From Asticcacaulis machinosus (GTDB lineage Bacteria; Pseudomonadota; Alphaproteobacteria; Caulobacterales; Caulobacteraceae), in NCBI RefSeq assembly GCF_028550435.1, contig NZ_JAQQKV010000002.1, positions 1,054,001-1,118,000 of the forward strand: a DNA stretch of 64,000 nucleotides, written 5' to 3'. Below the pieces are notes generated by a model. It was not told the origin of the DNA, ran no database searches, and was given only the letters and a program-made list of their open reading frames with translations. Positions 1,086-57,140 of this stretch are shown here, piece after piece; the first letter of the stretch is position 1; each line of letters starts with the position of its first letter. The position numbers were made by a program, and so were the translations under genes.

Positions 1086-1233
1086 AAGGACTCTCCTTCT
1101 TGGAGGGGGAGCTGCATTTTAGTGCTCGCATTAAAATGCAGAGGGGGTAAATCTTACTTGTGAAAATCACCCCCTCTGAAATTAAATCATAACTGACTTA
1201 ATTTCAGCTCCCCCTGCATCAGGGAGAGTTCTA
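1086..1233. repeat. Two head-to-head hairpin repeat units between ccmB and ccmC
   Basis: Two copies of one unit lie in opposite orientation (plus 1086-1150, minus about 1169-1233). Each unit reads AGRACTCTCC, then GGGGGAGCTG, then a hairpin, then CAGAGGGGGT. The inner stems differ: CTGCATTTTA pairs with TAAAATGCAG in the first copy, and CTGAAATTAA pairs with TTAATTTCAG in the second. A third copy is at 19438-19500. The second unit begins at the ccmB stop codon. The element may affect read-through from ccmB into ccmC, but nothing in the sequence proves this. Confidence 0.75.
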
Positions 1234-1920
1234 AGACAGTGCACTTTTGAGCGCAGCGCCCATCGCAATCGGCCCTAGAGCCAGCGCAAACAGGGCGTAG
1301 GCGCAGAGCAGGCTCAGGGCTTGGGTAATGGGGGCGCCGGTAAGATAGGCCTGCATCAGCCCGGCCCCGAAAATGACCGGCGGCACATAGAACGGCAGCA
1401 CCAAAAGGGCGATCAGAACACCGCCCTTGCGGGTGCCGAGGCTCAAAGACGCGCCAATACCGCCGATGATGGCAAAGCTTAAACTGCCAAGGATGGCGCC
1501 GATCAGGCTGATAAACGCCGCATCCACAGGCGCGCCCAGAATGATCATGACAAAAGGTGTGAGCACCGCCAGCATCAGTCCCGTCCCCAGCCACTGCGCC
1601 AGACATTTCAGCAGGGCGATGACTTCCATAGGCAGAGGCCCAAGGCGCAATATATCAAACAGGCCATCCTCGTAGTCGCGCTCAAACAGCCGCTCCAGCG
1701 ACAATAGCGAGGCCAATGCCAGACTGAGCCAGGTCAGGCCGGGCGCGACCCGCGACAAGGTGGTGCTGTCGGAGCCCAGGCTTAACGGGATCATGGCCAT
1801 CAGGGTCAGATAAAATCCGACCGCCAGTAACGGCCCGCCACCACGGGTCAGGGACAGGCTAAGGTCACGCTTAAGCAGGGACAGGGCCGCATGGGGGGCC
1901 ACGTTGATCTTAGTCGACAA
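1231..1920 (-). CDS. ccmB: Haem exporter permease CcmB
   Basis: A 229-residue, very hydrophobic protein with six predicted membrane spans. The N terminus has the cytoplasmic motif ALSLLKRDLSLSLTRGGGPL, then a segment resembling FERDYEDGLFDILRLGPLP, which is typical of CcmB. It forms the membrane part of the CcmAB ABC complex that drives release of haem-loaded CcmE. The start overlaps the end of ccmA by 11 bases, so the two are translationally coupled. Its stop codon is fused to a palindromic repeat. Length and motifs are normal for the family. Confidence 0.96.
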   Translation of the reverse strand: MSTKINVAPHAALSLLKRDLSLSLTRGGGPLLAVGFYLTLMAMIPLSLGSDSTTLSRVAPGLTWLSLALASLLSLERLFERDYEDGLFDILRLGPLPMEVIALLKCLAQWLGTGLMLAVLTPFVMIILGAPVDAAFISLIGAILGSLSFAIIGGIGASLSLGTRKGGVLIALLVLPFYVPPVIFGAGLMQAYLTGAPITQALSLLCAYALFALALGPIAMGAALKSALS

Positions 1921-19243: not shown

Positions 19244-19437
19244 CTCTTGGTCCTTTGAGAGGAGATTAAGGTGGACGCCCGTCATTGATCCGTTATCCCC
19301 CAGACGGTGCGATGGGGCGGGAACTGCGCTCAAGCAGCGAAGCGGTAGTGCTGCTCGAAATTAATTGTGGCTGCCGTATAAACCAAGCGAAAGGCTTTGG
19401 CAAATAAGGTTTCGATGAGCGTTTTGTGACACCCTCA

Positions 19438-19500
19438 AGAACTCCTCCTGTTGCAGGGGGAGCTGACCTTTAAGCGGCGCTTAAAGATCAGAGGGGGTAT
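19438..19500 (+). repeat. Third copy of the covarying hairpin repeat
   Basis: AGAACTCCTCCTGTTGCAGG, then GGGAGCTG, then an inner stem CTGACCTTTAAGC pairing with GCTTAAAGATCAG (12 of 13), then AGAGGGGGT. Flanks match the copies at 1086-1233 while the inner stem is different. It lies just after the stop of the ornithine-decarboxylase-type gene, between it and the deoxyhypusine-synthase-like gene. Confidence 0.75.
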
Positions 19501-19502
19501 CC

Positions 19503-20771
19503 CTACTTGCTCCGCTTCTTGCCGCGTTTGCCGCCTTTGGGGCGGTTGAGGCGCACGACCTTATTGTCTTCATAGGTCTCAAAGACGCTGCGCGGGGTGG
19601 CGATATGGCGCGGGCCAAGGCCGAACAGTGAGGCCATCGGCGCATCGTCCATGAATACCGTATCGGTTTGGCCATAGCCGTTAAAGCCGGTCGCCATAGC
19701 CACGCCGTAAGCGCCCAGCATCCCGATTTCGATATAGTCGCCTTCGCGCACATCGGCCGGCAGCCAGAACGGCCCCGGCATGTGGTCGATGGAATCGCAG
19801 GTCGGGCCATAGAAACGGAACGGGCGCAGTTCGCCTTCGGCGTCAGTGCCATCCGCGCGCACCAGCTTGACCGGGAAAGGCCATTTGGCATGGGTAGCGT
19901 CAAACAGTGTGCCGTAGGAGCCGTCATTGAGGTACAGCGCATCACCTTTGCGCAACTCAACGCGCGTTAGCACCGAGGTCGATTCCGCCACCAGCGAGCG
20001 ACCGGGTTCGGCCCACAGTTCCGTCGTTTCGTGGACCTTCATGTCTTCAAAGGCGCGGTCGATGACATCCATATATTCGGCCAGAGACGGCGGCACCATG
20101 CCAGGATAAACCGACGGGAAGCCGCCGCCGACATCGACGATATCAGCAAACACGCCGGCGCGCACCAGTGAGCGCGATGCGGCGGACATGGCGGCCGCAT
20201 AGGCGGTCGGGCGCATACACTGTGAGCCGACATGGAAAGAGATACCCATCAGATCCTGCGTGGCCTGACGCGCGGCCAGCAACAAAGCCGGGGCCTCATG
20301 GGCCTGAGCGCCGAACTTATTGGTCAGTGGCAGGTTCGAGCCTTCGCCAGAGGTCGCCAGACGCACGATCAGGTTCAGATCCTTGGCATTGCCGGTAGCG
20401 TCCTGAATCTTGCGCAGTTCATCATGAGTATCGAGGCTGAAGGTGCGCACGCCGTAATCAAAATAGGCGCGGGTAATGGCCGACCGGCTCTTGACCGGGT
20501 GCATGAAGGCGAGGCGTGCTTCGGGAGCAAGGGAGCGCACCAGTTCGACTTCGCCTAATGAGGCCACATCGAACGACGATATCCCCGCATCGCGCAGGGT
20601 TTCAATTACCCATGCGGATGGATTTGCCTTAACGGCGTAAAAGACATCGCCTTTAAAATTTGCCTGAAACCATTGGGCCGCGACGGAAACGGCAGCGCGT
20701 CGCACCATAGCGACGGGACGTTCCGGAGACTGCTTGCGGACCAGGTCCAGGGCCGTAGGGAAGATTTCCAT
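19503..20771 (-). CDS. Type III (alanine-racemase fold) ornithine decarboxylase-family enzyme
   Basis: A PLP enzyme of about 422 residues. The PLP lysine is in VFYAVKANPS (about residue 47), with HVGSQC, the glycine-rich VDVGGGFPSVYPG, the phosphate-binding EPGRSLVAE, and GPTCDSID holding the catalytic cysteine contributed to the partner subunit of the dimer. This fits group IV ornithine or ornithine/lysine decarboxylases that make putrescine. The C-terminal tail is Lys/Arg-rich (KGGKRGKKRSK). The start is set at the ATG (20771); the frame also opens with GTG at 20780. A speF-type structured leader lies upstream, and a deoxyhypusine-synthase-like gene follows on the same strand. Confidence 0.93.
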   Translation of the reverse strand: MEIFPTALDLVRKQSPERPVAMVRRAAVSVAAQWFQANFKGDVFYAVKANPSAWVIETLRDAGISSFDVASLGEVELVRSLAPEARLAFMHPVKSRSAITRAYFDYGVRTFSLDTHDELRKIQDATGNAKDLNLIVRLATSGEGSNLPLTNKFGAQAHEAPALLLAARQATQDLMGISFHVGSQCMRPTAYAAAMSAASRSLVRAGVFADIVDVGGGFPSVYPGMVPPSLAEYMDVIDRAFEDMKVHETTELWAEPGRSLVAESTSVLTRVELRKGDALYLNDGSYGTLFDATHAKWPFPVKLVRADGTDAEGELRPFRFYGPTCDSIDHMPGPFWLPADVREGDYIEIGMLGAYGVAMATGFNGYGQTDTVFMDDAPMASLFGLGPRHIATPRSVFETYEDNKVVRLNRPKGGKRGKKRSK

Positions 20772-20809
20772 CCACCACACCCAAGATAAAAGTTAAACCC
20801 AGACCGACG

Positions 20810-39903: not shown

Positions 39904-40042
39904 AAGAACCTCCCCTGTTGCAGGGGAGTCTCTCCTCCCCACGTGTGGGGAGGTGTCGAGTTTACGAGACGGAGGGGTACGGACGGCTATATACCCCTCC
40001 GTCAGCCTTAACGGGCTGCCACCTCCCCATGAAATGGGGAGG
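39904..40042. repeat. Cluster of CTCCCC-type hairpins between cpaA and cpaB
   Basis: Four hairpins in a row: CCTCCCCTGTTGCAGGGGAG (39909-39928), CCTCCCCACGTGTGGGGAGG (about 39934-39953), CGGAGGGGTA pairing with TACCCCTCCG (39970-40001), and ACCTCCCCATGAAATGGGGA (40021 onward). It opens with AGAACCTCCCC, the same end as the element at 43065-43185. It splits the pil locus transcriptionally or is a landing site for a small mobile repeat. Confidence 0.7.
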
Positions 40043-40051
40043 AGATTCAGA

Positions 40052-43064: not shown

Positions 43065-43185
43065 AGAACCTCCCCTAATTTTAGGGGAGGATGTCACGGA
43101 GTGACAGGTGGGGTTAATCTGGCCGGGGTTTGACCCCACCTCCGGCCCTGTCGGCCTCCTCCTCCCCTCCATGAGGGGAGGTTCT
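43065..43185. repeat. 121-bp MITE-like element with 12-bp perfect terminal inverted repeats
   Basis: AGAACCTCCCCT (43065-43076) and AGGGGAGGTTCT (43174-43185) are exact inverted repeats. Inside are further nested stems such as GTGGGGTTAA...TGACCCCAC and GGCCGGGG/CCGGCC-like pairs. It lies between the convergent tadE-like and pabB genes and could act as a two-way terminator. Related ends occur at 39904-40042, 43200-43222 and 48585-48614. Confidence 0.7.
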
Positions 43186-56816: not shown

Positions 56817-56964
56817 GATCGTCCTCCTTTTATGAGTTGGAAGCAGCATAATCCGTTTGCTGTAAGGCTTTAAGACGCATGTTCGTGATCGGTGTAAGCG
56901 GGCTGTAAAATGCTCCTTGAGATTCCCTCTTGCATCCGGGAGCCAAAATACGCATATAGCGCTT

Positions 56965-57051
56965 GAGATCGCGCGGGCGAAGGCCTCGCCAATCTGGTCA
57001 GGGCCGGAAGGCAGCAGCCACAACGAATTCACCTTCGGGTCGCGCGGTCTC
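56965..57051 (+). ncRNA. ffs: Signal recognition particle RNA (small 4.5S type)
   Basis: The conserved SRP54-binding core GGTCAGGGCCGGAAGGCAGC followed by AGCC lies at 56997-57019. GAGATCGCGCG (56965-56975) pairs with CGCGCGGTCTC (57041-57051, one G-U pair) to close the hairpin. It lies upstream of dnaX-ybaB-recR, a gene order common in alphaproteobacteria. Ends are set by the closing stem and may extend a few bases. Confidence 0.93.
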
Positions 57052-57140
57052 ACCTATTCCCCAAAAAATCTATCTCGTAATGAATGATCAAGGTTATCGA
57101 AACCATCTAGCGATGGGGCGTGTAAATTTGAGGGGGGATT

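Follow-up and report, generated by a model that had tools for sequence, protein, structure and literature searches.

What keeps a short DNA segment folding into the same hairpins while its sequence changes, and how do the copies of such a segment arise? The question is raised by a 64,000-nucleotide stretch of Asticcacaulis machinosus (NZ_JAQQKV010000002.1:1,054,001-1,118,000), referred to in its entirety as the window; the genome it belongs to is labelled G000. A sequence-only reading of this DNA had described three hairpin units that share conserved flanks, carry different inner stems that still pair, and lie next to stop codons. It had proposed that the structure is selected or that one arm is copied from the other. 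The three units were confirmed at 1086-1150 (+), 1167-1233 (-) and 19437-19500 (+). A flank pattern matched exactly these three in the window, shuffled sequences leading one to expect 0.01, and a covariance model trained on 15 copies, the three window units among them, scored them at 72.7, 74.0 and 78.7 bits, respectively. The features are as follows.

1087-1232, no strand assigned: whole element, read as non-autonomous, with two head-to-head units and a spacer, AGGAC...GTTCT (cross-genome presence/absence)
1091-1111, plus strand: outer hairpin H1 of the left unit, CTCTCC..GGGGGAG (sequence, folding)
1112-1141, plus strand: inner hairpin H2 of the left unit, CTGCATTTTA../..TAAAATGCAG (sequence, folding)
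1142-1148, plus strand: conserved G-rich tail AGGGGGT of the left unit, towards the spacer (sequence, consensus)
1176-1207, minus strand: inner hairpin H2' of the right unit, CTGAAATTAA../..TTAATTTCAG (sequence, folding)
1208-1228, minus strand: outer hairpin H1' of the right unit (sequence, folding, model match)
19438-19500, plus strand: solitary unit (no partner unit found); the ORF at 19503-20780 (-) has its stop codon 2 bp away
39904-40047, no strand assigned: related composite element, with a GGGGAGGTGTCG..CGAGACGGAGGGG unit that, by eye, appears to lie behind a AGAACCTCCCC hairpin
43065-43185, no strand assigned: related complete element of B type, AGAACCTCCCC...GGTGGGGTTAA / TTGACCCCACC...GGGGAGGTTCT

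The window contains one head-to-head pair, a single unpaired unit and a further two elements that are related but belong to other sequence types. Read on its unit strand, each of the three units forms a hairpin H1 (CTCCCCC..GGGGGAG), a second hairpin H2 (CTN..NAG) directly next to it and, after that, AGGGGGT. Folding z-scores of this strand were -4.4, -5.3 and -3.6 for RNA and -4.8, -7.1 and -4.1 for DNA. The complementary strands fold too, somewhat more weakly (as DNA, -10.7, -13.2 and -14.5 versus -12.2, -16.4 and -15.1 kcal/mol for the unit strand), and for two of the three units the folding of both strands is nearly equal. An Rfam scan of the window at the gathering score yielded no family covering the units; its sole match was a bacterial small SRP RNA at 56962-57057 (+) with 63.3 bits. 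At 39904-40047 one hairpin unit appears to be nested in, or to lie directly behind, another, an arrangement that suggests the insertion of one element type into another.

Searched against the whole genome of A. machinosus, a similar flank pattern yielded 18 exact copies (reversed-pattern control, 0) and, in a looser form, 52 copies (control, 0). In A. machinosus and four close relatives the family numbers dozens of copies. An earlier candidate scan, which scored 150 of 1374 candidates, gave 108 matches that include opposite-strand matches to the same hairpins, and no copy count was taken from it. Many units form convergent, head-to-head pairs with their G-rich tails facing each other, and such a pair constitutes one element of the form AGAAC-H1-H2-GGGGGTAA...TTACCCCC-H2'-H1'-GTTCT. 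A pattern search for whole elements, AGAAC...GTTCT, revealed 33 candidates of 121-174 bp, two of them overlapping. The halves are of type A (inner CT..AG, tail AGGGGGT) or type B (tail GGTGGGG), and only ~12 bp of the ends are common to copies at unrelated sites. Two elements at different sites, L220 and L236, are 85% alike over their full length, as expected of copies; the median of 496 pairs is 63%. The best reading of the 121-174 bp copies is that they are MITE- or REPIN-like non-autonomous derivatives of a longer element that has been internally deleted.

The fold of the units is conserved far better than the sequence of the inner stem. In the 15-copy alignment the named structure was 98.1% paired, compared with 80.9% with shuffled partners, and the covariation score was 0.452, compared with 0.117 after shuffling and at most 0.093 when the partners were slid by 1-3 columns. 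The inner-stem pattern GGGGAGCT N12-40 AGAGGGGGT, in which no pairs beyond the first two are fixed (these two were kept in the shuffles), gave 160 matches in 7 of the 25 genomes of the genus and 0 for the reversed control. About 150 listed of these 160 matches, together with units read from fetched loci, provided 126 distinct inner segments. Of the first 10 pairs, 80% or more are standard in 121 of these segments, as against 5.2% of interior shuffles; to the eye, the remaining five resemble stems that contain a G.A mismatch or a bulge.

The mismatches that do occur are strand-biased. Read on the unit strand, 114 well-parsed stems contain 29 G.T and 4 A.C mismatches, or 25 versus 4 when one event is counted per cluster and position (p = 1e-4). 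A two-sided (cruciform) or arm-copying process predicts equal numbers of the two, so that the excess argues for selection on each unit's own single strand. Selection for structure acting on this one strand is strongly supported, strand-biased C-to-T mutation being a process that could also produce a G.T excess. The loops carry a weak DNA-loop signature (GNA 7 and GNNA 12 versus TNC 3 and TNNC 5 of the 126). These figures bear out the earlier claims that the inner stems differ in sequence yet pair and that their structure is selected, and the genome holds further copies, the inner arms of which clearly pair. The proposed copying of arm onto arm, which would treat G.T and A.C alike, is left unsupported by the 25:4 count, and the sequence-only reading missed both the architecture of two ends of one element and the DUF559 gene described below.

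That the units adjoin stop codons also proved correct. The element at 1087-1232 reaches into the stop codon of the ORF at 1231-1920 (-), and the solitary unit, as listed, is 2 bp away from one. Gene ends across the genome were taken from a simple choice of ORFs by length and third-position GC, and stops were compared with starts. In 61 clusters, the gene boundary that an element or unit faces is a 3' end in 80 cases and a start in 36; 52 of the 80 facing stops lie within -2 to +14 bp of the unit or element, versus 6 of the 36 facing starts. Converging genes flank 24 of the clusters and diverging genes 3. Terminator scoring was positive for one of the three window units, the 19438 unit scoring nothing, and terminator-like sites at the two window loci were not above shuffles. 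A terminator-like function at 3' ends is at most part of the story.

To follow the history of the insertions, we compared 15 sites with their counterparts in four relatives, sixty stretches in all, some long stretches lying outside the alignments; a sixteenth, composite locus (L221) was excluded because it had almost no match in the relatives. The 1087-1232 site is empty in G004 and G013, with 5 bases between the aligned flanks. G002 has a single hairpin there, the remnant expected of a deletion between direct repeats CCCCTG, and in G012 the element is partly kept, with one H2 changed by wobble steps. At the L236 site the alignment reads as different combinations of left and right halves: L1R1 in A. 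machinosus, L2R1 in G002, L1R2 in G013 and L3R2 in G004. Three other intergenic positions (L207, L225 and L211) are occupied by different elements in different species, and the L209 site holds a collapsed remnant that resembles a terminator with a T-tract. Clearly shared insertions, for example L203 in G012 or L214 in G002 and G004, have conserved their inner stems apart from small changes, which places the large diversity of stems between insertions. By eye, no consistent target-site duplication was seen in the 33 candidate elements or the 60 orthologous stretches, and no excision joint could be cleanly defined at the orthologous sites, most unoccupied sites being too diverged. A second, unrelated intergenic repeat (CAAGCGCCGCAGGTAC..GTACCTGCAAGCGC) was seen at L282, L284 and L297 and partly at L261, L262 and L264 (G002, G004, G013), at gene-end positions where A. 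machinosus has an element of the DUF559 type.

Frames of the family DUF559 (PF04480) sit exactly between two inverted A-type units in G000, G002, G004, G012 and G013. Two such arrangements in A. machinosus are:

G000:C3, 85188-85250 > 85264-85581 < 85621-85685: unit, DUF559 frame, inverted unit
G000:C1:1509207-1509708: DUF559 between two inverted units

The complete versions span 498-502 bp; that of G013 is shortened. At the loci L097 and L098 the flanking units belong to the same covariance family (64.9-78.1 bits), forming terminal inverted repeats of a larger element. A search for PF04480 gave 86 matches in 17 genomes, and 20 loci were fetched: all 10 of A. machinosus and 10 from relatives, five of the latter chosen for units already seen there. 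An inverted word of at least 12 bases spans the gene at 14 of these 20 loci (6 of the 10 in A. machinosus) and one of at least 10 bases at 18 (9 of 10); among 44 ordinary window genes the median was 8 and none reached 12, the cut-off of 10 lying outside this calibration. Direct words of at least 12 bases occur at 4 of the 20. The orthologous loci L102 and L113 have units upstream only, and most other DUF559 genes of A. machinosus appear, by eye, to be framed by C-run/G-run hairpins of their own sequence types. At L099 (G000:C1:1483100-1485000) the DUF559 frame continues through the right-hand repeat into a downstream reading frame, as if fused to it; judged by eye, this frame may be RibD-like.

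The distribution of units follows that of the gene among close relatives. Five genomes have a best DUF559 with 82-100% identity to the L097 protein, measured for G013 across 90 of the 121 residues, and each of the five contains 19-52 exact A-type units. Of the other 20 genomes, 18 contain none, G018 contains 2 and G021 contains 8, the best DUF559 matches of these two being 56-57% identical. The association between at least 19 exact units and a close L097-type DUF559 has a Fisher p of 2e-5, the five positives being close relatives and not five independent cases. Both element-type DUF559 genes of G013 (L110, L111) are shortened or disrupted, and this genome still has 24 exact units. Among the matches listed, the covariance model gave weak matches (E <= 0.001) in 22 of 61 genomes. 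These include five in G010, which yet has no PF04480 match and in which the L097 protein found no DUF559 either, and two each in G005 and G019, where the search with the L097 protein found none at E <= 1e-20; such matches may be remnants, or the model may be picking up units of other types. The genome-wide search for transposases covered Y1/RAYT (PF01797) only. It gave 0 matches in G000 and likewise in each further genome searched that bears units. The 3 positive genomes of 17 (G008, G009, G014) are without a unit match at E <= 0.001 among the matches listed.

In Pfam, the L097 protein matches only DUF559 and a nuclease profile, MTES_1575. An AF2 model derived from 36 DUF559 sequences reached a pLDDT of 88.2. 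Its best fold in a Foldseek search of the PDB only is I-Bth0305I (3r3p; TM 0.64/0.77, E 3e-5), other folds being 3hrl (E 4e-5), which also matches DUF559 by sequence (E 2e-15), and, more weakly, Vsr (1cw0; E 0.05). As judged from this model, DUF559 is a small nuclease with a homing-endonuclease/Vsr-like fold. Asp49, Glu60, Asp62, His66 and Asp75 are invariant in the 36 sequences, and we assume that these conserved acidic and histidine residues have catalytic roles. The one DUF559 protein that we met with in vivo data is Caulobacter VsrA (CCNA_02930). In a 2026 report it is interpreted as a mismatch-repair endonuclease, a protein induced by DNA damage and itself DNA-damaging (PMC12907096); the word beginnings 'palindrom' and 'transpos' are absent from the main text of that report. 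A full-text literature search for DUF559, PF04480 and COG2852, the scope of which left subscription journals mostly outside, returned no paper linking the family to repeats.

The inverted framing of DUF559 extends beyond Asticcacaulis. From 119 confirmed relatives we kept 80 named loci, 75 with usable flanks, from Asticcacaulis, Caulobacter, Sphingomonadaceae, Mucilaginibacter and other Bacteroidota, Planctomycetota, Chloroflexota, Patescibacteria and others. Inverted words of at least 12 bases occur at 49 of the 75 loci and of at least 15 bases at 38, leaving 26 and 37 loci without them; the rates in 1484 flank pairs from different loci were 11.8% and 5.5%, and the 44 window genes gave 0. Direct words of at least 15 bases are common as well (16 of 75), so part of the inverted-word signal reflects clustering of elements. 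Inverted words of at least 15 bases were found in Planctomycetota (L150), Mucilaginibacter (L170), Chloroflexi (L171) and Patescibacteria (L172, L178), where they are known as words and not as double hairpins.

A Sphingomonad-type unit, GGGGAGGGGGACC..GGTGGAGGGG, has 2-100 copies in 16 of 16 genomes (control, 0), all chosen for having DUF559 loci (15 Sphingomonad or unclassified, one Caulobacter). In the reverse test, about 150 listed of 382 matches contained at least six convergent unit pairs with gaps of 347-427 bp, and 6 of 6 enclose DUF559; four of these are seed loci and two are not. Among the matches listed, 96 distinct inner hairpins of this type have C(GNA)G loops in 61 cases and C(GNNA)G loops in 13 more. 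Their mismatches are 56 G.T and 0 A.C, the former including, by eye, one recurrent wobble position. GNA and GNNA loops form extraordinarily stable DNA mini-hairpins (PMC4686876), and the loop type thus points to single-stranded DNA rather than RNA.

We read the observed copy number, head-to-head architecture, covariation, strand bias, location of DUF559 between units and presence or absence at orthologous sites as the marks of a mobile-element family that has DUF559 as its own enzyme, the units as its ends and the short copies as deleted derivatives, a reading to which we assign a probability of about two in three. The evidence comes from sequence comparison and structure prediction, and the number of transposition events seen is zero. 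DUF559 probably moves the elements; that it cuts, that its substrate is single-stranded DNA, and by which route the copies insert, we infer. The autonomous copy would be the ~500 bp arrangement of unit, DUF559 gene and inverted unit, from which the 121-174 bp copies, including 1087-1232, would have arisen by internal deletion and become non-autonomous. Each end would be read as a single strand composed of a sequence-conserved H1, an H2 conserved in shape with largely free sequence, and the G-rich tail. The DUF559 protein would most likely bind this folded end as single-stranded DNA and nick or cut at the element boundary. Copies would then settle at new sites, in many cases immediately after a stop codon, where the harm may be least, and the H2 stems would drift through paired substitutions, since nothing but the shape of the hairpin is recognized.

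A less likely competitor is a spread of the homing type, in which DUF559 breaks a degenerate or terminator-like site and recombinational repair copies the element in, halves being exchanged as a by-product. The nearest fold is a homing endonuclease, four genomes differ in their combinations of left and right halves at the L236 site, and the L207, L225 and L211 positions carry different elements by species; against it, the sites are many and unrelated with only the ~12 bp ends in common, and ordinary recombination between copies would likewise shuffle halves. It is improbable that another enzyme moves the units and that DUF559 is a Vsr-like repair or defence gene repeatedly captured between them. 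The interpretation of VsrA as a mismatch-repair endonuclease (PMC12907096) and the genomes with weak model matches and no DUF559 would fit such a history. Against it stand the findings that Y1/RAYT, the transposase family covered genome-wide, is absent from the unit-rich genomes searched, that wide convergent gaps are DUF559-sized and, among the matches listed, encode DUF559 in 6 of 6 cases, and that inverted repeats frame this gene in several phyla.

Slightly less probable again is that the units are immobile RNA elements, namely bidirectional intrinsic terminators or stabilizers of mRNA 3' ends under selection, with DUF559 as a passenger. The closeness to gene 3' ends (52 of 80), the 24 of 61 clusters between converging genes, the one terminator-like window unit and the terminator-like L209 remnant with its T-tract are in keeping with this. 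Presence and absence nevertheless vary between sister species, terminator-like sites are no commoner than in shuffles at the window loci, with no score for the 19438 unit, and the inverted pairs around DUF559 would go unexplained; moreover, two units of one transcript would be read on opposite strands, yet the G.T bias tracks each unit's own strand. Template switching (quasipalindrome correction), which would copy arm onto arm in the absence of selection, accounts for near-perfect inverted repeats that differ between copies; being blind to G.T versus A.C, it is very improbable in the light of the 25:4 ratio on the unit strand. Classical REPIN/RAYT elements, which the head-to-head palindromic units, the gene 3' ends and the several subtypes recall (cf. 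PMC3733652), are hardly credible here, the consensus having no GTAG tag and Y1/RAYT being absent from G000 and the unit-rich genomes searched. On the same absence of PF01797, RAYT was rejected as the mobilizer.

The mobile-element reading places the family beside several known systems without merging it with any. Like REP/REPIN sequences and their RAYT (TnpA-REP), the units are short, palindromic, paired in inverted orientation behind genes, and presumed to be non-autonomous and moved by a nuclease encoded between such units. Unlike them, the gene is DUF559, with an EDxHD/Vsr-like fold and not a Y1 HUH transposase, each unit has two hairpins with a freely varying and covarying inner stem, and the GTAG tetranucleotide at the unit foot is absent from the consensus AAGAACTCCCCC..GGGGGTAA. 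MITEs derived from insertion sequences share the inverted-repeat ends and the internal deletion of an autonomous element; here, however, the autonomous copy has no known IS transposase, the ends are folded double hairpins, and no consistent target-site duplication was seen by eye. EDxHD homing endonucleases are known from introns or split genes and from homing to a single site. I-Bth0305I shares with DUF559 the nearest solved fold (3r3p) and the biology of a mobile nuclease, whereas the gene described here is bounded by inverted hairpin ends of its own and units are present at many sites.

In IS200/IS605 the transposase recognizes subterminal secondary structures (PMC6006769), which resembles the structures near the ends of the present units; in contrast, Y1 TnpA is absent here and inverted ends put the folded strands on opposite strands. 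CGTC REPs (Di Nocera et al. 2013) are mostly alphaproteobacterial palindromic repeats in head-to-head dimers, apparently without a dedicated transposase (PMC3733652), a likeness that ends at their CGTC tag and single 8-9 bp stem, neither of which is present in the A-type consensus. The CIR repeats of Caulobacter (Chen and Shapiro 2003), compared by their description in PMC2229807 only, are likewise intergenic, alphaproteobacterial and two-armed; association with CcrM GANTC sites and high conservation are theirs and not those of the units.

DUF559, a little-understood nuclease family found across phyla, is now tied to one class of short palindromic repeats, and the tie puts the enzyme question within reach of a test that needs one small protein and some short oligonucleotides. 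Many genomes contain short palindromic repeats without a known transposase. We tentatively propose, at slightly less than even odds, that DUF559 elements form a separate pan-bacterial class of transposable elements, in which one EDxHD-type nuclease of ~120 residues recognizes the shape of double-hairpin ends folded from single-stranded DNA, and that DUF559 is the enzyme so far missing for a large part of the short palindromic repeats that have no RAYT. If the mobile-element reading is true, DUF559 genes annotated as 'Vsr-like' would have to be read differently, including Caulobacter vsrA, the DNA damage of which has been explained by mismatch repair (PMC12907096). The freely drifting inner stem would then provide a clean natural case of DNA that is recognized by its shape.
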